A stretch of 64,000 nucleotides of DNA from Beijerinckia sp. L45 (GTDB lineage Bacteria > Pseudomonadota > Alphaproteobacteria > Rhizobiales > Beijerinckiaceae): assembly GCF_009765775.1 (NCBI RefSeq), contig NZ_LMUU01000051.1:6778-70777 (forward strand), read 5' to 3'. Below the pieces are notes generated by a model. That model was not told where the DNA came from and searched no databases. It saw only the letters and a list, made by a program, of their open reading frames with translations. This document shows positions 6,795 through 27,817 of the stretch, piece by piece. The position numbers and the translations under genes are program-made. Every line of letters starts with the position of its first letter. Positions within the stretch are counted from its first letter, which is position 1.

Positions 6795-7463
6795 ATGATC
6801 AAGGCAGTCATTTTCGACGTGGACGGCACGCTGATCGACAGCGTCGATTTTCATGCTCGCGCCTGGCAGGACGCCTTCCGCGAGTTCGGCCACGAGATCG
6901 ATCTCGCCAAGATCCGGGGCCAGATCGGCAAAGGCGGCGACCAGTTGATGCCGGTCTTCCTGTCCAAGGACGAGCTGCATGCCATCGCCGACAAGCTTGA
7001 TGAGCGGCGTGGCACGATTCTGCACGAACGTTATCTTGCCAAGATCAAGGCATTTCCCGAGGTGCGTGCGCTGTTCCAGCGCATCCTGAAGGACGGTAAG
7101 CAGATCCTCCTGGCTTCGTCAGCCAAGGGCGAGGACCTGCAGACGTACAAGGAACTCGCCAGGATCGAAGACTTGCTCGATGCCGAGACCTCGTCCGACG
7201 ATGCCGACAAGAGCAAGCCGCATCCCGACATCTTTCAGGCGGCTATGTCCAAACTACCTGGTGTCGAGCCGGACCAGACGATCGTCATCGGCGACACGCC
7301 CTATGACGCCGAAGCGGCGGGCAGGGCAGGGTTACGCGCCATCGGCGTGCGCTGTGGCGGCTGGCCGGACGGTGCGTTGAAACAGGCCGGATGCATCGCC
7401 GTCTACCGCGATCCTGCCGATCTTCTGGCGCATTACGATGCTTCGCCGCTGGCCACCCTATGA
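6795..7463 (+). CDS. HAD-superfamily phosphatase
   Basis: A 222-residue phosphoglycolate-phosphatase-like hydrolase. Motif I is FDVDGTL with nucleophile Asp and acid/base Asp, followed by a helical cap domain (about residues 20-85). Motif II is ASSA, motif III is KPHPDIF with the catalytic Lys, and motif IV is GDTPYDAEAA. The substrate cannot be told from sequence; beta-phosphoglucomutase-like members differ in the cap. The ATG at 6795 puts motif I at residues 6-12 as usual; a GTG six codons upstream is possible. Confidence 0.9.
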   Translation: MIKAVIFDVDGTLIDSVDFHARAWQDAFREFGHEIDLAKIRGQIGKGGDQLMPVFLSKDELHAIADKLDERRGTILHERYLAKIKAFPEVRALFQRILKDGKQILLASSAKGEDLQTYKELARIEDLLDAETSSDDADKSKPHPDIFQAAMSKLPGVEPDQTIVIGDTPYDAEAAGRAGLRAIGVRCGGWPDGALKQAGCIAVYRDPADLLAHYDASPLATL

Positions 7464-7534
7464 ACAATTAAGGCTGCGGACTTCGGCCAGACGGGTTGGC
7501 GGCACTCGACCGACCGGCACACGCCGACGTCATG

Positions 7535-7558
7535 TTGACATGAGGGCAATTACCCTCA
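7535..7558 (+). promoter_or_regulatory. Promoter -35 element with an overlapping palindromic operator (MarR)
   Basis: TTGACA (7535-7540) is immediately followed by TGAGGGCAATTACCCTCA (7541-7558), a palindrome with 16 of 18 symmetric positions. It fills the -35/-10 spacer of the likely marR promoter, so a bound dimer would block RNA polymerase. The 18-bp size with two half sites matches typical MarR sites. Autoregulation by the gene at 7600 is inferred. The -10 is weak (AATACG or neighbours). Confidence 0.7.
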
Positions 7559-7599
7559 ATACGGGTTGGATAGGTCGGATCAATTTTGAGACCACGTTC

Positions 7600-8037
7600 A
7601 TGGCAACGCCCGAACCCGAATTCTGTAGTTGCGCGGCGCTTCGCCAGGCAACGCGTCACGTCACCCAATTTTACGACGCCGCGCTGGCGCCGTCCGGGCT
7701 CGGGCTCAATCAATATTCGATCCTCTCCCGGCTTAGCCGCTTCGGGCCGATGACGATCCAAAAGCTGGCGGCGCTCTTGGTGATGGATCGTTCGACGCTC
7801 GGGCATCTTCTGCGGCCGCTCGAAGCACGCGATCTGCTGACCTTGCAGACATCGCAGGAGGACCGCCGTAGCCGCATCGTAAGCTTGACCCAGGTCGGTA
7901 CGGATCTGTTTGCCAAGGCGCGACCGCTCTGGGTCGACGCCGAGCGGCATTTCGAAAGCCGCTTCGGCGCCGAGGCGGCGCATGCACTGCGTGCCACGCT
8001 CAAGCAAGTCACGCAAACCGATCTCACGATCCGCTGA
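7600..8037 (+). CDS. MarR-family transcriptional regulator
   Basis: A 145-residue dimeric winged-helix regulator. The winged helix spans about residues 35-95, with recognition region MTIQKLAALLVMDRSTLGHLLRP and the wing DRRSRIVSLT, flanked by dimerisation helices. ATG at 7600 is chosen because the promoter and operator lie just upstream; the longer open frame would run through them. It leads an operon with a tautomerase (19 nt after its stop) and an MFS carrier. This suggests that a small organic acid or aromatic ligand relieves repression of uptake and conversion of that compound. CxC near the N-terminus (FCSCAAL) could give redox sensing, though this is speculative. Confidence 0.92.
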   Translation: MATPEPEFCSCAALRQATRHVTQFYDAALAPSGLGLNQYSILSRLSRFGPMTIQKLAALLVMDRSTLGHLLRPLEARDLLTLQTSQEDRRSRIVSLTQVGTDLFAKARPLWVDAERHFESRFGAEAAHALRATLKQVTQTDLTIR

Positions 8038-8055
8038 TCCTTGAAAGGACACACT

Positions 8056-8436
8056 ATGCCGCTCGCCCGTATCGACGTTCCCGCCGGCAACACGCCGGAT
8101 TACCGCGCCACCATCGGTGCCGTCGTCTACGACGCAATGATCGAGACGCTGAAGGTACCGAAGGACGACCGCTTCCAGATCATCGCCGAACACGCGCCGG
8201 GCGGTCTGGTCATCGATCCGACCTATCTCGGCATCCAGCGCTCGGCGCAATGCATCATCATCCAGCTGACGCTCAACGAGGGGCGCTCCGTCGAGGTGAA
8301 GAAGGCTTTCTACGTGGCGGTCGCGGAGGGCCTGCACGCCCGGCTCGCCATCCGCAAGGAGGACGTCTTCATCAACCTCGTTGAGGTGAAGAAGGAAAAC
8401 TGGTCGTTCGGCAACGGCGAAGCGCAATACGCCTAA
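8056..8436 (+). CDS. Tautomerase family protein (4-oxalocrotonate tautomerase superfamily)
   Basis: A 126-residue protein starting MPLARIDV. Removal of Met exposes Pro-1, the catalytic base of this superfamily, which tautomerises or dehalogenates small unsaturated acids. The length is about twice that of the smallest family members, so it is likely a fused two-repeat form. AAAGGA lies 7 nt before the ATG. It is cotranscribed with marR and the MFS gene, which suggests a catabolic step on an imported acid. The exact substrate is unknown. Confidence 0.88.
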   Translation: MPLARIDVPAGNTPDYRATIGAVVYDAMIETLKVPKDDRFQIIAEHAPGGLVIDPTYLGIQRSAQCIIIQLTLNEGRSVEVKKAFYVAVAEGLHARLAIRKEDVFINLVEVKKENWSFGNGEAQYA

Positions 8437-21689: not shown

Positions 21690-22020
21690 CCGAAACGCTC
21701 TCGCTGGTGGTCGGCTTTGCAGAAACCCAAGCCGAATCCTTGACGTCGTTACCTATATCAGGGACGGCAGCCTTAAACAAAGAGTGAACAGAGCGCATTT
21801 GTTCTTTTTGTGTTCCCGCGAGCTTGCGGCCTAAACGCTCGCCTAAGCCGTCCTTTCGTCGATGTGTATGGAAAGCTCGAAAGTGATTCAGGATCGACAC
21901 TGGAATTGGTGGCGGGAAGCATGTCCCTCCAGGCGCCAAACATCGCCGATCGATTGCCTTCTATTATGCTGTATCTGTCGAATGGAAGGCAACAACACCC
22001 GCCGTGTCCGCTGCTGGCTA
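21690..22020. other. Intergenic region lexA / peptide cassette, lower GC, no gene seen
   Basis: It holds the lexA leader with its LexA box. Beyond about 21840 the sequence becomes visibly richer in A and T than the flanking genes. On the minus strand TTGTTT and TATAGG 17 nt apart (within 21740-21785) could be the lexA promoter. No coding frame on either strand has an RBS or a recognisable product. Confidence 0.45.
21801..21815. promoter_or_regulatory. LexA box, direct-repeat alphaproteobacterial type
   Basis: GTTCTTTTTGTGTTC is an exact GTTC-N7-GTTC, the LexA site known from alphaproteobacteria. It lies 112 nt upstream of lexA and about 205 nt before the promoter of the peptide cassette, so it most likely serves lexA. 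Confidence 0.8.
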
Positions 22021-22049
22021 TTGACAAAAAAGTCGGATCTGACTCTAAT
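22021..22049 (+). promoter_or_regulatory. Near-consensus sigma70 promoter of the peptide cassette
   Basis: TTGACA (22021-22026), a 17-nt spacer, then TCTAAT (22044-22049): 6 of 6 and 5 of 6 consensus matches with ideal spacing. Transcription would begin near 22056, giving a leader of about 50 nt. This is the best promoter match in the window and is set in AT-rich sequence. Confidence 0.75.
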
Positions 22050-22105
22050 ATCGCCACTAGTCAAATGCCCAATTTTCTCGCAAGCTCGATTTGAGGAGAT
22101 GTATA

Positions 22106-22312
22106 ATGGTTTTGCCATATGATCCAGCCGTGGCGAGCAGCGATATTGCAAATGATCAGGCTGATGAGAGCGCCGTCATAAACAAACTATTCCAACTTTC
22201 CGCTTTATCGCATGAAGAGCTTGATCATTTGCAGCAACATATCGACGTCCTGGAAAAGCGACAAGATTCCGACACGCAGCACCACCATGAAGACACGCTA
22301 ACCGAAGACTGA
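22106..22312 (+). CDS. Small acidic His-rich peptide, candidate precursor of a modified peptide
   Basis: A 68-residue peptide with 16 Asp/Glu, only 3 Lys/Arg, 6 His and no Cys. GAGGAG (22093-22098) lies 7 nt before the ATG and a strong promoter lies upstream, so expression looks real. Residues 25-52 (NKLFQLSALSHEELDHLQQH and onward) look helical, as leader peptides often do. The C-terminus (53-68) is polar, with HHH at 59-61 and DTLTED at the end. Codon use is AT-richer than the neighbours (ATA, TTA, CTA, CAA), hinting at recent acquisition or an atypical gene class. It precedes an HExxH protein and a reductase on the same strand, suggesting a precursor peptide; it could instead be a small regulator. 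No family recognised. Confidence 0.65.
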   Translation: MVLPYDPAVASSDIANDQADESAVINKLFQLSALSHEELDHLQQHIDVLEKRQDSDTQHHHEDTLTED

Positions 22313-22321
22313 TTTCCATGC

Positions 22322-22345
22322 CTCATAACTTGGTTGAATTATGAG
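22322..22345 (+). promoter_or_regulatory. Stem-loop between peptide gene and HExxH gene
   Basis: CTCATAA (22322-22328) pairs with TTATGAG (22339-22345) around a 10-nt loop, 9 nt after the peptide stop and 19 nt before the next start. With no T-run it may act as a partial transcription or decay barrier that keeps the peptide transcript more abundant than the enzyme transcripts, as in many precursor/enzyme operons. It is AT-rich and therefore weak. Confidence 0.4.
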
Positions 22346-22364
22346 TATGTGACGGGTCTTGGCT

Positions 22365-23939
22365 ATGGTGGAACAGAGCGAAACTGTCGAATGGGCGAGC
22401 GATCCTATCGCCGCCAGCGGCTCTGGGGAGGAAGCACGACGGCCGGCAGGTGAGACCAAACCGTCCGGTTCGTCTATGGACGACGTTGTCGCTGCAAGTC
22501 CCTTGGGCGATCATCTCTATATCAACCGACAGCTGGATCAGTGTTTTCGTCGTCGTCTTGCGACGCTGGCTTCCTCTCTGGAGGGCGCAAAACGACTGAT
22601 GCTTCGACTAGAGGCGGCGAGCGAGTACGAGCGGTATCGTGTCATAGGCAGCACGGTCGTGCGTTGCGCGATCCAGCATGGTTTACGACAGGTCGAGACG
22701 GGGCAGCCGTACGGCCTGCCGATTGCGGATTGCGATGCCGTTCTGGCGGCGACTGCCAATTCGATCAATGCCGGTCGTTTCGGGGACGCGACATGGGGCG
22801 CCGGCCGCCGTATCGGAGACCAGATCTACCACGGTGCGATCTGGTCATCTCAAAGTGAGGCTGAAGATCCCGTGTCGGCGAAGGCGCTCGACTTCGTCGT
22901 ACGCGATAATTACCCGGGTGGTCCAAGCGATCCCTCGGCAAGCGAGATCGATGCGCTGCGACGCGGCGCGCGCCTACTTGAGGCGCTCCTGCCCAAAGTC
23001 GCTCGCAGCGCACTTGCCCATGCGCATTCCATCGTAATTTTCCGCTCAGGCGGTGCGTGGCAGCGGACCGCCTCCAGTTCGGAATTCCGTTTGGGCGGCA
23101 CGATATTTCTCAGCAGCAAATATCTGTCGAATCCATGGTGGGTGGCGGAGCACCTGTTCCACGAGGCGCTGCATCAACAGATGTACGATTTCCGTCACAC
23201 CCATTTGCTTCTGACGGCCGACTTCGATCGTGACGACGCGCCGCGCATCGTGTCCCTGTGGAACTCGCCCGACAGCAACCGTTGGGACGCGCACCGGTCG
23301 CTTGCCGCCTTCCACGTCTACGTTCATCTCGCACTACTAAGTCGCCTTATCGAGCAGCGGCCGCCTGCAAAAGCCTCCTCGTTTCCGACCGATCCGATGC
23401 GCATGATCGCGAGCACGGTCGCTTATCAGCGCGCGCATTATCTTGCAGAGCATTTGAAAGCAGAGTGCTGGAACGAACTGGGACCGGCAGGCAAAGTGTT
23501 CGTGTTGTTTTATACCCGGGTTCTCCAGAGCATCGACATCAGGCCGCCTCCGCCGGCCGCCTCGCTTCATCTGCTCCTCAACCGGTACTTGAGGGAAGCG
23601 CGGCGCGTCGATGCTTTAGGTCTTAAAGTCGAGCTCGTCAGTAACAACGCGCGGCTCGAATTGGAAAAGCTCGCCGCCGGTGAGACACGGGATGTAAAAT
23701 ACATTCTAGCCGCCTTGCAGAAGACGCAAGCGCTCGACGACTTCGAGGCGGCACTCGCCGAGGTCGACGAGCGCGATCCTGCGAAGCGCTTCGCGGCGAT
23801 ACGCGATCTGATCGCGAAGACGCTCCGCGAAGTCTCGATCGACGGCTATAGCCTCGGCGGATCCGGCCAAGTCGACGGCGCCATCCGTGCCATGGTGGAA
23901 ACATCGAGCGACCAACTCAAAGTTCTTCTCGCCGCCTGA
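22365..23939 (+). CDS. HExxH-motif protein, possible peptide-modifying enzyme
   Basis: A 524-residue soluble protein with no signal peptide or membrane span. A metal-binding HEALH occurs at 266-270 in LFHEALHQQ. A second His cluster, AAFHVYVH (His317 and His321), lies about 47 residues later. This layout resembles the HExxH putative peptide-modification family (TIGR04267, now described as 2-oxoglutarate/HExxH peptide beta-hydroxylases), where a third ligand follows in a similar hydrophobic helix; I infer the link from pattern only. A zinc peptidase is the main alternative. The C-terminal 150 residues are helical and Ala/Glu-rich. It follows the small peptide by 52 nt and precedes the reductase by 64 nt. 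The start at 22365 has no strong RBS; an ATG at 22477 is possible. Confidence 0.6.
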   Translation: MVEQSETVEWASDPIAASGSGEEARRPAGETKPSGSSMDDVVAASPLGDHLYINRQLDQCFRRRLATLASSLEGAKRLMLRLEAASEYERYRVIGSTVVRCAIQHGLRQVETGQPYGLPIADCDAVLAATANSINAGRFGDATWGAGRRIGDQIYHGAIWSSQSEAEDPVSAKALDFVVRDNYPGGPSDPSASEIDALRRGARLLEALLPKVARSALAHAHSIVIFRSGGAWQRTASSSEFRLGGTIFLSSKYLSNPWWVAEHLFHEALHQQMYDFRHTHLLLTADFDRDDAPRIVSLWNSPDSNRWDAHRSLAAFHVYVHLALLSRLIEQRPPAKASSFPTDPMRMIASTVAYQRAHYLAEHLKAECWNELGPAGKVFVLFYTRVLQSIDIRPPPPAASLHLLLNRYLREARRVDALGLKVELVSNNARLELEKLAAGETRDVKYILAALQKTQALDDFEAALAEVDERDPAKRFAAIRDLIAKTLREVSIDGYSLGGSGQVDGAIRAMVETSSDQLKVLLAA

Positions 23940-24003
23940 CTCGACCGAGACGACGCGCCCCAACATCGCGGCTCGTGCTCGCAGCCAAAACGGCGAGGCA
24001 TGG

Positions 24004-25263
24004 ATGAGTTCGATCCCGGGGAGCGGACATCAGGGAAGCCGGCATCCCGGGGTGCAGGCTCTGCTCCAAAAACTACGCCGCAACACCCCATTGGGCGCCC
24101 ACGAATTCGCGTTGCTCAAACGACAGATTTCTGGCCTGACGCCGGCCCGATCCGAGGCTTCTTGGGGGTCCGATGCCGGCCGGTCTACCAACCCGGCCCT
24201 CACCGATCGCGTGAATGATACGTTGTCCGGCGCCGCCGATCTGGTCGGCGGTGCGCTTTGCGCTTCGGGATTGAGCCTCCCCGCCGCGTTTTATAATCGC
24301 GCTCAAGGCCTCACGGTATCCAGCATCGGAATTGGCACGCATCGCGGCGCTTCCGACGATCAGACGGACGCGGCGTATCGCGCCGCGATCGGCGAGTCCT
24401 TTCGGCGTGGGATCAACCTTGTCGACACCGCCATCAATTATCGCAATCAGCGCTCGGAGCGCGCCGTCGGCGAGGCCCTGCGAACCTACCTGACCGCGGG
24501 CGGGCGACGAGACCAAATCACAATCTGCACGAAGGGAGGTTTCCTGATGCCCGACGCGATCCCGCCGGCACTCCAGGCGGACGACGTGGCGGCCAGCCGG
24601 CATTCGATCGCGCCGCTCTTTTTGCGCGATCAGATCGACCGCAGCCGGTGCAATCTCGGCATCGCAACGATCGATGTCTATTACCTTCACAACCCCGAAG
24701 TTCAGCTTGCAAGTGCTCGAAAGACGGTTTTCCAGGCCATCATGCGGCAGGCCTTTGAAGCCCTGGAACTAGCGGTGTCAGACGGAAAGATCCGGTTCTA
24801 CGGCGTGGCCACCTGGACCTTGTTCCACGATGATCATGTATCGCTTCAAGGGTTGTTCGATCTCGCGCAGGCGATTGCTGGCGACGAACACCATTTTCGC
24901 TTTCTGCAGGTGCCGTTCAATTTGGGAATGCGGGATGCGCAACAGCGTGGCATCGGGGGGAAACCGTCTCTCATTGAGGTCGCTGCCGTTTGCGGGATGA
25001 GCGTCTTGGCCAGCGCGCCCATCCTGCAGGGGCGGCTGGCGGCGGATCTGCCTGATGCGCTCGCCACGGCGATGCCCGGCCTGACGCGCGACTCGCATCG
25101 CGCTCTGCAGTTCGTGAGATCGACACCGGGTATCGTGGCCGCGCTGGTCGGGATGCGGCGGCTTCGACACGTCGCCGACAATCTCGCCCTCGCCACCGAG
25201 CCCCTGCTGTCGCGCGATGCGTATGAGGCTTGTTGCGCGCTGCTGGACTCGTATCGAGCTTAG
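24004..25263 (+). CDS. Aldo/keto reductase with long N-terminal extension
   Basis: A 419-residue NAD(P)H-dependent oxidoreductase. The TIM barrel starts only near residue 102 (LTVSSIGIGTHRG). The full catalytic tetrad is present: Asp141 and Tyr146 in VDTAINY, Lys177 in CTKGG, His229 in YLHNPE. The first 100 residues are an extra region, partly helical (GVQALLQKLRR), unlike ordinary members, and could recognise a partner or carrier. GAGG precedes the ATG at 24004; earlier in-frame starts overlap the preceding gene. Together with the HExxH protein and the small peptide it forms a likely three-gene operon. The reaction is unknown. Confidence 0.88.
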   Translation: MSSIPGSGHQGSRHPGVQALLQKLRRNTPLGAHEFALLKRQISGLTPARSEASWGSDAGRSTNPALTDRVNDTLSGAADLVGGALCASGLSLPAAFYNRAQGLTVSSIGIGTHRGASDDQTDAAYRAAIGESFRRGINLVDTAINYRNQRSERAVGEALRTYLTAGGRRDQITICTKGGFLMPDAIPPALQADDVAASRHSIAPLFLRDQIDRSRCNLGIATIDVYYLHNPEVQLASARKTVFQAIMRQAFEALELAVSDGKIRFYGVATWTLFHDDHVSLQGLFDLAQAIAGDEHHFRFLQVPFNLGMRDAQQRGIGGKPSLIEVAAVCGMSVLASAPILQGRLAADLPDALATAMPGLTRDSHRALQFVRSTPGIVAALVGMRRLRHVADNLALATEPLLSRDAYEACCALLDSYRA

Positions 25264-25329
25264 GCTCCAGTCAACACACGTCGTCGGCGATCGCTTGCGT
25301 TTTTAACGAGCTTCCGGAACAACGAAACG

Positions 25330-25746
25330 ATGCGCCAAGCCAGCCAATGTCTCGCCATCCCCACCGACGGCAAAGGCCTCTATGAGGTGACATGGGCGGT
25401 GCATCGTTTCGTCGAGAGCGAGCGGATCGAAACCGGCTTGCTGACCGTCTTCTGTCGTCACACCTCGGCCTCCCTGCTCATTCAAGAAAACGCCGACCCA
25501 GACGTTCAGGCTGACCTGAAACGGTTCTTCGAGGCGGTCGCGCCCGAAAATGCCGGCTATATCCACGGCGCGGAGGGGCCGGACGACATGCCGGCGCATA
25601 TCCGGGCGGCGCTGACCCAGACGCAGCTGTCGATCCCCATCGCGGACGGGCGGATGGTGCTGGGGACATGGCAGGGGATCTACCTGTTCGAGCATCGCCG
25701 TGCGCCACACCGCCGCTCGATCGCCCTGCATCTGATCGGTGTGTGA
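25330..25746 (+). CDS. YjbQ / UPF0047 family protein
   Basis: A 138-residue protein of the YjbQ family, for which weak thiamine-phosphate synthase activity has been reported in E. coli; its physiological role is unclear. The family blocks FCRHTSASLLIQENADPDV, IHGAEGPDDMPAHI and GTWQGIYLFEHR are all present, with the conserved His and Glu residues likely to bind metal. It follows the reductase by 66 nt and converges on the dihaem cytochrome gene. It need not belong to the peptide cassette. Confidence 0.92.
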   Translation: MRQASQCLAIPTDGKGLYEVTWAVHRFVESERIETGLLTVFCRHTSASLLIQENADPDVQADLKRFFEAVAPENAGYIHGAEGPDDMPAHIRAALTQTQLSIPIADGRMVLGTWQGIYLFEHRRAPHRRSIALHLIGV

Positions 25747-25848: not shown

Positions 25849-27648
25849 TTAAAGCGTCTTCAGATATTCCAGCAAGGCCTTCTTCTCGTCCGCGGTCAGT
25901 GTGGTCGTGCCATATTCGTGACCGCAGCGGCTGTCGCCGGAGTTGGGCTGGCTGCAATCGGTCGTCTCGAGCGTGTAGTCGAACTTCGTCTGGTCGGCCG
26001 CAATGCCGACCTTGTCGATGTCGTAGGCCGGGCCGATCTTGAAGCGGACCGGGCGCTCGGCAGCGGTCTTGAGCAGATCGCTCAGCGTCGGCACCGAGCC
26101 GTTGTGCAGGTAGGGCGCGGCGGCCCAGATCCCTTCCAGCACCCGCGATTCGTAGGCGTTCACCGGCGCCTCGCCGGGCGCGGTGGTCGTCGTCCCCAGC
26201 GACTTTTCCTTCGGTCCGGGAGCCCGGAAGGCGCCCTGCAGCGTGCGCAGGTTCGGCGGCAGGCTCTTCAACTGGATCGCTTTGGCGTCGCCAGCAATCT
26301 TGGCCTTGATGTCGAAGATCGCCTTGAGACGCGTGTCCTCGACGGCGAGACGCGCGATCGGGATGTAGTATTGCAGGATCGAGCCGATGACCGATAGGGC
26401 AAGAGTGTTAAACGCCTTATCGGTCGCTTTCAGCGGCGCCGTCAGGAACGGGATGGAGGCGCCATCGAGCGTCCCGGTTTTCGCCGTCCACGCCAGCACG
26501 TCATATTCCCGCGTATCCGTCCCGACGTTCTGGACCGGGGTCACCCAGGTTTCGTTGCCGAAAATGGGATCCGACTTTTTGACGATACCGTGGCATTCGA
26601 CGCAGCCGCCAGTGGCTTGCGGCCGATCGAAGACGACTTTTCCCGCCGCCACCAAGGCGGGGTCGACTGGCCAGCGCCACTTCGGCGGGCCGATCTTCTT
26701 GACGAGCGTCTCAAGCGTGTTCAGGCCGTCGAAGTTGGCCGAATTGTTTGCAAGATAATTGATCCGGAGCAGGTGCCACCAGCTCTCTTTCGTGGGCTCG
26801 AAAATCCCGAAGACGCCGTAGACTTCGCCGAGATTGCGTGACAGGGCGAGGAGATCGTTGCCGTTCGCCGCGAAGCCCGGCCATTGCGTGCGGTCCTGAA
26901 TCGGAGCGTTCCACAGGAAGGGATAGCGGACCGGCGCATCGGCGACATGGATGTTCTCGGGAATGAGACAGCTGGGCGGGGGTCCGAGATCGAGCCCCGT
27001 CAGGCGATTGAAGATCATCCCGACGGCGTCGAGCCGCACCGGCCCCCATGGTTTTGGCGGCAGCGCCTTACTGACGAGGGTGTGGTAGCGCAGATACCAG
27101 GCCTGGACCTCCTGGTGGAGCGCCGTCGCATCCTCGCTGTTCGCGCCCGTTTGTGCCAAAACCTCATTGGCGAAGGTCGTGAAGGCGGGCCCGTCGGTCA
27201 GGATATGCGAGACCGCCGTGTCGAGGTCCGCAAGAAAGCTTTGAAAGTCGGTGAAGGCCGGGCCGCCGTCGACCCGATAGGTCGTGCCGGCCACCGTGAT
27301 GTCGCGGGTATGGCAGGCCGAACACGTCATGCCCGCGATCTTGACCGGGGCCGGGCCCGATGCCGTAAACCCGACGGGCAGTCCATCGGGGCTATCCGGA
27401 TTGGCGAGATAGCCGTAGCGGCCGAGATGATCCGCGAGAAACGGCATGCCGTTCGGTTGCTGCAGCGCCTGCAACCACGGCAGCGGGATCATTTTCGAGC
27501 CCTGGTCCTGCTTGTAGAAATCGCCGCGGGTAACTGCCGTCCAGTTCGGCCCCTGGTCCATATAGGTCGGCGCCGTCTCGGCTGCATGGGCGTGCCCCCC
27601 GAGGATCGCGACCATCACAGCGGACGCCAAAAGCGCGGACGACTTCAT
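25849..27648 (-). CDS. Periplasmic dihaem cytochrome c, peroxidase/RoxA-like
   Basis: A 599-residue protein with a signal peptide (1-22, ending HAHAAE) and two haem c motifs, CSACH (109-113) and CVECH (349-353). Its size is far above the 350 residues of classical dihaem peroxidases. The block MIPLPWLQAL followed by PFLADHLGRYGYL is typical of the long dihaem proteins that include the rubber oxygenases RoxA/RoxB and proteins annotated as dihaem peroxidase. Whether it reduces peroxide or cleaves an organic substrate with O2 cannot be told. GGAGG lies 6 nt before the ATG at 27648; a start 4 codons upstream would overlap this SD. It is the last gene of the accessory block before moeA. Confidence 0.85.
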   Translation of the reverse strand: MKSSALLASAVMVAILGGHAHAAETAPTYMDQGPNWTAVTRGDFYKQDQGSKMIPLPWLQALQQPNGMPFLADHLGRYGYLANPDSPDGLPVGFTASGPAPVKIAGMTCSACHTRDITVAGTTYRVDGGPAFTDFQSFLADLDTAVSHILTDGPAFTTFANEVLAQTGANSEDATALHQEVQAWYLRYHTLVSKALPPKPWGPVRLDAVGMIFNRLTGLDLGPPPSCLIPENIHVADAPVRYPFLWNAPIQDRTQWPGFAANGNDLLALSRNLGEVYGVFGIFEPTKESWWHLLRINYLANNSANFDGLNTLETLVKKIGPPKWRWPVDPALVAAGKVVFDRPQATGGCVECHGIVKKSDPIFGNETWVTPVQNVGTDTREYDVLAWTAKTGTLDGASIPFLTAPLKATDKAFNTLALSVIGSILQYYIPIARLAVEDTRLKAIFDIKAKIAGDAKAIQLKSLPPNLRTLQGAFRAPGPKEKSLGTTTTAPGEAPVNAYESRVLEGIWAAAPYLHNGSVPTLSDLLKTAAERPVRFKIGPAYDIDKVGIAADQTKFDYTLETTDCSQPNSGDSRCGHEYGTTTLTADEKKALLEYLKTL

Positions 27649-27817
27649 CCCTGCCTCCAAACGAATTCAGCCGAAAAGACAATGAGTTATAATGTCGGCG
27701 CAGCGCGGAAATGACGCCGTCGTATCGAACGCAACACTATGCCGCCGTATCGGCGAAAACAACTAATACGTTCAGCCAAGGCTGCGTGGCGACTTGGGTT
27801 GTGGTTCGCGACTCGCG

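Follow-up and report, generated by a model that had tools for sequence, protein, structure and literature searches.

The question raised by this locus of the window, that is, of the whole 64,000-nucleotide stretch of Beijerinckia sp. L45 DNA analysed here, is what is made by a gene for a short acidic peptide followed by genes for an HExxH protein and an aldo/keto reductase (AKR). The original prediction, that the block is a peptide-modification cassette, is supported by a TIGR04267 match, by the predicted fold of the enzyme, and by conservation of the neighboring peptide, and the chemistry is what we infer from these. The three genes probably make a chemically modified, His-rich small peptide and, given that the same pair occurs in distantly related bacteria, may represent a new family of modified peptides. 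We consider it likely that they form a compact RiPP cassette, with a leader-core precursor, an HExxH oxygenase, and tailoring by a reductase.

The cassette lies in an accessory insert between lexA and yjbQ (21824–25407), the flanks of which, at 21823 and 25408, are about 100 bases apart in the compared genome of the same genus (G003). The block had been placed between lexA and moeA, as was confirmed, with moeA identified by eye; besides the cassette, yjbQ and the gene of a di-heme peroxidase intervene. On direct reading, a sigma-70-like promoter (TTGACA-N17-TCTAAT; 22021–22049, + strand, as for all features below) has its boxes at 22021–22026 and 22044–22049, with a spacer of 17 bases, and a Shine-Dalgarno sequence, GAGGAGA (22093–22099), lies six bases ahead of the ATG of the peptide gene at 22106; the prediction had named both. 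The promoter is absent from the list of a consensus scan because position 2 of TCTAAT breaks the rule of that scan. The GC content was measured to be 0.48–0.51 across 21750–22499 and mostly 0.6–0.7 in the surroundings, so that the region of the promoter and peptide gene is indeed AT-richer, as had been noted. The stem-loop claimed between the peptide and enzyme genes did not hold up, being no better than shuffles in the window (z −0.72; 44/200 equally good); of the five loci folded downstream of the peptide gene, L032, L035, and L036 were likewise at shuffle level, and S. xanthophaeus alone showed a strong stem-loop (z −4.1; 0/200 shuffles as good).

An RNA element was ruled out, with no Rfam match within 21690–25400, as was a defence system, with no PADLOC match for any of the three cassette proteins. 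Phage origin was likewise rejected: none of 44 candidate IMG/VR stretches encodes a relative and phage records gave no match; PHROGs gave one match, between the reductase and a family of unknown function. Of the seven proteins scanned in or beside the insert, none matched a transporter family, and the only peptidase match was the self-cleaving domain of LexA.

The peptide gene (22106–22312) encodes 68 residues that are Cys-free, with a net charge of −13 and the C-terminus QHHHEDTLTED, in line with the acidic, Cys-free peptide described from the outset. Alignments divide the product into a leader part (22106–22279) with the pattern LS..EL..LQ..ID.LE, which is likely helical, and a putative core, HHHEDTLTED (22280–22309). 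Family-wide, the leader pattern is common and the tail is of the HHH or HDHDH type with Asp/Glu, the core being variable in length; a His-rich acidic tail is present in the 12 intact precursors of the held-out test and also at loci L085 and L086. In that test, in which leave-one-group-out profiles were run against 7,142 segments, the held-out peptides scored E values of 9e-10 to 9e-4, all outranking the non-family segments, the best of which reached 0.11. Furthermore, the profile recovered the peptides of L085 (7e-10) and L086 (5e-8), neither of which was used in building it; these two loci were found later via the enzyme alone, and the peptide is present at both.

The genome of the window holds only one precursor match at E ≤ 1. 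One match per genome was found in 11 of the 16 whole genomes searched, including a decayed copy at L042 (0.0036), and none in the other 5, which carry the outgroup loci L043–L046 and the fragment L047. The decayed copy, which is outside the profile training yet kin of trained rows, outranks the peptide of the window, L028, or L034 when that peptide is held out, and is unlisted at E ≤ 10 when the Janthinobacterium group is held out; its core and its enzyme are altered together in the alignments. By its dN (0.014–0.115) and dS (0.21–1.25; NG86), the Janthinobacterium peptide is under purifying selection.

The enzyme gene (22365–23939; 524 residues) encodes a predicted aKG-HExxH-type peptide hydroxylase. 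The profile search against TIGR04267 (aKG-HExxH peptide beta-hydroxylase) gave 42 bits, only 2 bits above the curated cut-off of 40 (E 9.4e-11), and 16 of 16 aligned rows match this profile at E ≤ 0.01. In an alignment of 18 rows, the window included, H266, E267, A268, and H270 of the HEALH site (residues 266–270; 23160–23174) are invariant. Of the second His cluster that had been pointed out at 317/321, both residues are present, and H317 (23313–23315) is invariant in the 18 rows but H321 is variable. By eye, His317 falls near the RP..G..H histidine conserved in other TIGR04267 proteins, with a spacing that differs by one residue, and it is proposed as the third metal ligand. HExxH is also the zincin motif. 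Pfam assigned no family to the 524-residue protein at E ≤ 1, hence neither a peptidase nor a radical SAM domain. The AF2 model (pLDDT 82.8) gave only five Foldseek hits at E ≤ 0.001, namely four chains of 8s5f, an aKG-HExxH oxygenase, and 22ob; with VIA, 8s5f matched with a Z of 23.7 (rmsd 3.2, 292 residues) and 22ob with a Z of 17.7 (311 residues), the next row being at 8.6. Profile and predicted fold thus place the window protein in the aKG-HExxH oxygenase family, from which Fe(II)/alpha-ketoglutarate hydroxylase activity on a peptide would be expected.

PDB 8s5f is ChlB, a fused radical SAM/aKG-HExxH protein (PDB title; Morishita et al., 2024), which, as cited in the available text of PMC12636437, is reported to act on a RiPP precursor by beta-hydroxylation of its Asp and His. 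The two proteins have the HExxH oxygenase fold in common, the match spanning model residues 42–391. Unlike ChlB, the window protein has no radical SAM domain and therefore no cyclophane to start from; it also has an extra C-terminal helical region past the ChlB-like domain (23562–23936), a candidate leader-binding region. The leader and core of the cassette, and its AKR or methyltransferase partners, differ from those of ChlB as well. SjiH (PDB 22ob), compared by fold alone, is similar at the Z of 17.7 given above. In the available texts, hydroxylation by published relatives is described for His, Asp, Phe, Gln, and Pro (PMC13060819; PMC12636437). PesO, of the nitrilobacillin cluster, is likewise an aKG-HExxH peptide hydroxylase, but is described as targeting Pro, its partners being an MNIO and a nitrile synthetase and its cluster also containing peptidases and a transporter (PMC13060819, available text). 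A stand-alone aKG-HExxH enzyme beside a precursor, in a cluster described without a protease, is also the layout of PflC/PosC in Pseudomonas, where, in contrast, an MNIO-nitroreductase, a GNAT, and transporters are found and the precursors combine a leader of the nitrile-hydratase-like type with a Gln-rich, ARMD-containing core (PMC12636437, available text).

The last comparison brings in oxidative backbone cleavage, which, instead of or besides hydroxylation, would leave a C-terminal amide in the manner of PflC/PosC, with the reductase acting on the carbonyl fragment. Such cleavage is known from family members (available text of PMC12636437), the cassette is without a protease, and the stretches past the His motif vary by lineage; however, no conserved ARMD-like tetrapeptide follows that motif in the 12 intact precursors, as judged by eye, and we regard this outcome as unlikely.

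That the peptide is tied to the enzyme is seen in other bacteria: relatives of the enzyme have a relative of the peptide immediately ahead of them in Rhizobium, Sphingomonadaceae, Paraburkholderia, Janthinobacterium, and actinobacteria, and the full three-gene order also occurs in R. mayense and one actinobacterium. A neighborhood search had been proposed at the start, and it located the peptide gene next to that of the HExxH protein in further species and at all four reductase-bearing loci found (the window, L032, L036, and L085). The 13 peptide-paired enzymes form one group in the tree, with support of 100/100. The reductase was found at only 4 of the 15 clade loci, within the available flanks, and is therefore not essential to the core pair; a methyltransferase is present at other loci, and three of these four are fusions with the enzyme, that of Paraburkholderia among them. 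No partner gene was found for the Janthinobacterium pair. Thus, the peptide–enzyme pair is conserved and the cassette recurs, with a RiPP-type layout in which a short leader-core precursor gene lies beside a peptide-modifying enzyme.

One-to-one pairing would also fit if the peptide stayed unmodified and were a His-rich metal chaperone or buffer, not the substrate of the enzyme, which it might provide with iron; tails of the HHH/HDHDH type are expected to bind metals. Against this, the family modifies peptides encoded next to it, and outside the clade related enzymes accompany quite different peptides, either in LanB clusters or, alongside a radical SAM protein, one of the VAGG type. This speaks for the peptide as a substrate, and the chaperone is very improbable. 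Hardly credible is the view of the enzyme as a zinc metallopeptidase, cutting the peptide or other substrates, with the peptide as inhibitor or pro-region, since the motif itself and the hydrolysis described for the aKG-HExxH enzyme PflC when the leader is missing (PMC12636437, available text) are outweighed by the lack of any Pfam family and the agreement of profile and fold on aKG-HExxH oxygenases.

The reductase (24004–25263) matches PF00248 (89.4 bits versus 24; E 2.9e-25) and has homologues at L032, L036, and L085. Its tetrad, reported earlier as intact, is so: D155, Y160, K191, and H243 (numbered from 23962) are invariant in the three aligned homologues. The start is uncertain, with an in-frame ATG at 24004 giving 419 residues and the first in-frame GTG, at 23887, giving 458. 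The N-terminal extension contains a putative leader-like segment (24034–24168), and resembles the precursor leader, being perhaps a docking module, on mixed evidence. With a profile of the extension, the precursors of three AKR cassettes rank straight after the AKRs; for precursors of reductase-less loci, 10 to 614 of 1,000 shuffles were as good (L040 not scored), and for that of the reductase locus L036, 318 of 1,000. In whole genomes, the precursor ranked second, behind the reductase, in R. mayense (0.043) and G1730 (1.19) and was unlisted at E ≤ 10 in the genome of the window, and four of seven genomes without these three reductases gave matches (best 0.098).

With the leader profile, the window reductase scored 0.6 bits (30/1,500 shuffles as good) and the L036 reductase was at shuffle level (239/1,500), the L032 reductase and L028 methyltransferase being unreported; the L085 reductase alone stood out (0/1,500), and over 10,254 segments an unrelated L029 segment (0.014) outranked it (0.21). 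Pairwise, when each was compared with the leader of its own locus, the reductases of the window (p 0.139) and L032 (0.76) scored no better than shuffles. The window reductase did exceed shuffles against the L085 leader (p 0.0045), as did the L032 reductase against the window leader (0/2,000); for the L028 methyltransferase and the leader of its locus, p was 0.002, as one among 40 comparisons. The AF2 model of the reductase is poor (pLDDT 54.5; 3 sequences) and was set aside. A Nostoc plasmid match to the reductase (E 0.004) was taken as chance; it falls where an NRPS protein begins.

In the favored RiPP pathway, the probably helical N-terminal leader of the 68-residue precursor would deliver its His/Asp/Glu core to the Fe/alpha-ketoglutarate HExxH oxygenase, which would most likely beta-hydroxylate core His and/or Asp. 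The hydroxylated core would then be tailored by the aldo/keto reductase or, in other lineages, by a separate or fused O-methyltransferase instead, and the reductase could use its leader-like segment to dock on the partner to which the precursor also binds. Proteins encoded elsewhere would have to remove the leader and carry out export, or the full-length peptide would be the product. The likeliest function would be metal chelation by the hydroxylated His/Asp tail. A fuller version is possible and, on balance, doubtful: a new RiPP class of proteobacteria and actinobacteria, in which a metal-binding, His/Asp-hydroxylated peptide is made by a stand-alone HExxH oxygenase and an AKR (perhaps also a Streptomyces methyltransferase) with an N-terminal leader copy docks at the recognition site of the substrate, the methyltransferase elsewhere being fused to the oxygenase.

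The cassette probably represents a RiPP family of the HExxH type whose core is rich in His. The available text of PMC13060819 presents few aKG-HExxH enzymes as described and their transformations as at present unpredictable; the modified residues of the core are not readable from sequence here. With only two or three genes per system and clear precursors in several orders, the clade makes substrate choice directly testable. If beta-hydroxylation of the poly-His cores is borne out, it would be a compact way of making metal ligands ribosomally, and the leader-like segment of the reductase, if real, would be a simple means for a RiPP enzyme to enter a maturation complex.

The promoter, ribosome site, 68-residue acidic peptide gene (22106-22312), gene for a 524-residue HEALH protein (22365-23939) and aldo/keto reductase gene (24004-25263) of the original prediction were all found, on the forward strand. 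Since the match to a genome of the same genus (G003) stops at 21823 and picks up at 25408 after about 100 bases, the cassette is regarded as an insert. The window order of comEC, lexA, yjbQ, moaC, and trpC is kept in G003 (moaC and trpC being named by eye), and in a second genome of the genus, G002, lexA and yjbQ are separated by approximately 1.6 kb of different sequence that does not match the window. A gene for a di-heme cytochrome c peroxidase (25849-27660; NF040606 match, with a RoxA-like C-terminal match) is absent at the corresponding place in both genomes and forms another insert, located between yjbQ and moeA (the latter named by eye).

The HEALH protein had been linked to TIGR04267, and indeed scored 42 bits against the cut-off of 40 for this NCBIfam family (aKG-HExxH-type peptide beta-hydroxylase), with no match in Pfam; all 16 rows of alignment A4 matched the same family at E ≤ 0.01. 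When it was compared, profile to profile, with 11 TIGR04267 proteins from the order of the window, the probability was 96% over 176 columns. The AF2 model (pLDDT 82.8 from 16 sequences) was compared with known structures: only five Foldseek matches reached E ≤ 0.001, each a chain of the ChlB HExxH domain (8s5f, E 4e-6) or SjiH (22ob, E 2e-5), and VIA placed 8s5f at Z 23.7 over 292 residues and 22ob at Z 17.7 over 311, the next row being at Z 8.6. H219, H266, E267, H270, H280, and H317 belong to the residues invariant across 18 aligned rows. Because H280 is not kept in ChlH—in a weak HMMER alignment (E 0.77)—its role may be limited to this enzyme subfamily.

The peptide was expected beside HExxH genes in other species, and this was borne out. 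A single scan of the GTDB genomes, in which three aligned relatives served as the query, yielded 16 loci, 10 of which contain an intact small ORF directly upstream of the enzyme gene. Together with those of S. xanthophaeus and the window, these make 12 intact precursors, in all of which a common leader pattern is combined with an acidic tail rich in His (HHH, HHDHDH, HDHDH, or similar). At the Janthinobacterium violaceinigrum locus (L042), the peptide tail is lost and the enzyme is altered at several otherwise conserved positions; the remaining five loci are L043-L046 and a fragment, L047. The Janthinobacterium peptide is under purifying selection, with comparisons across its two subgroups covering the leader only. 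Between the peptide and HExxH genes of the S. xanthophaeus plasmid lies a strong hairpin (L028, 7917-8039; z -4.1), which possibly sets the peptide:enzyme ratio.

In leave-one-group-out profiles, the omitted peptide was recovered every time, with E from 9e-4 (window) to 9e-10, and outranked all segments outside the peptide family (7,142 six-frame segments; best such 0.11 in any run). An eight-peptide profile gave a single match in each of 11 of 16 whole genomes (L042 at 0.0036) and none in the other five. A later enzyme search in the order of the organism carrying locus L034 matched 22 of 297 genomes and provided 20 loci: L034 itself (as L081), the only further close relatives, L085 and L086, each with the peptide upstream of the enzyme (E 7e-10 and 5e-8), and 17 with no such peptide within a flank of about 1.5 kb.

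The window enzyme itself had no match at E ≤ 0.001 in 148 other relatives and none among 397 other genomes of the phylum sample. In the class sample of 385 genomes, G831 was the one full relative besides the window's own genome, with a single weak match in addition, and 299 other genomes from the order of the organism carrying L040 gave one weak match; of 397 genomes in the order to which the window belongs, 23 encode TIGR04267 proteins of any kind.

In a midpoint-rooted enzyme tree (lacking the later-found L085 and L086), the 13 peptide-associated enzymes, L042 included, are split from the others by a branch supported at 100/100, and the window enzyme is sister to that of R. mayense (99/98). 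Partner genes were counted at these 13 loci plus L085 and L086, in flanks of limited length. A reductase is present at four of the 15 (window, L032, L036, and L085), and a PF13578-type methyltransferase at four (fused in L034, L036, and L040; a separate, divergent gene in L028). L036 belongs to both groups, and eight loci have neither gene in the flanks examined. The peptide–enzyme–reductase order of the window is repeated in L032 and L085. The actinobacterial three-gene cassette (L101) is preceded by a radical SAM protein (617-2740) and followed by a beta-propeller-like 313-residue ORF (7344-8285), both named by eye.

The N-terminal extension of the reductase was compared with the precursors by means of a profile built from three extensions (window, L032, and L085) and searched against 10,254 six-frame segments, some loci being represented twice. 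Below the reductases themselves, it retrieved exactly the precursors of these three cassettes (0.002, 0.054, and 0.28), the best further segment being at 0.68, and for each of these precursors none of 1,000 shuffled versions scored as well. The L085 extension aligned with the leader without gaps over 40 residues, with none of 2,000 shuffles as good; further tests of the leader likeness came out weaker or negative. Resemblance of the extension to the precursor leader is considered probable in the case of L085; for the window it is suggestive. The reductase's nearest plasmid relative (38%; L030, 7920-9125) is part of an NRPS cluster of Nostoc that also has a TauD/TfdA dioxygenase, and here too a dioxygenase and an aldo/keto reductase are neighbors.

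Outside the clade, related enzymes occur in LanB-type clusters of Nonomuraea and Spongiactinospora. In L029 (7974-14493), L045 (6010-11981), and L046 (5974-12473), the HExxH enzyme precedes an ORF of roughly 193 residues and a lantibiotic dehydratase, called by Pfam in L045, with which the L029 and L046 proteins cluster; in Nonomuraea, the end of the ORF is Cys-rich and a LanC-like gene comes after it (by eye). It is possible that such clusters make hydroxylated lanthipeptides. In Aphanothece (L043, 5935-9498), the HExxH gene is accompanied by a radical SAM protein and a 91-residue peptide containing VAGG. The alphaproteobacterium G831 encodes a peptide with two copies of PLKLVGNARLxLHHHMAPATE (reverse strand; L049 3128-3427, L103 4902-5201), upstream of a divergent HExxH enzyme whose C-terminus matches DinB_2.

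Searches of the open-access literature returned no title or abstract describing this cassette and nothing joining HExxH, RiPP, and aldo-keto reductase; subscription papers lay mostly outside this scope, and novelty is thus unproven. Two reports describe aKG-HExxH members that hydroxylate His, Asp, Phe, Gln, or Pro, and some that cut the backbone (PMC12636437; PMC13060819). Since His, Asp, and Glu predominate in the peptide tails of the clade, the simplest reading is that the HExxH enzyme would beta-hydroxylate His or Asp of the precursor tail; the new hydroxyl, or carboxylates, would then be the target of the reductase or methyltransferase. From the residues alone, we infer that the peptide may have a metal-binding role.
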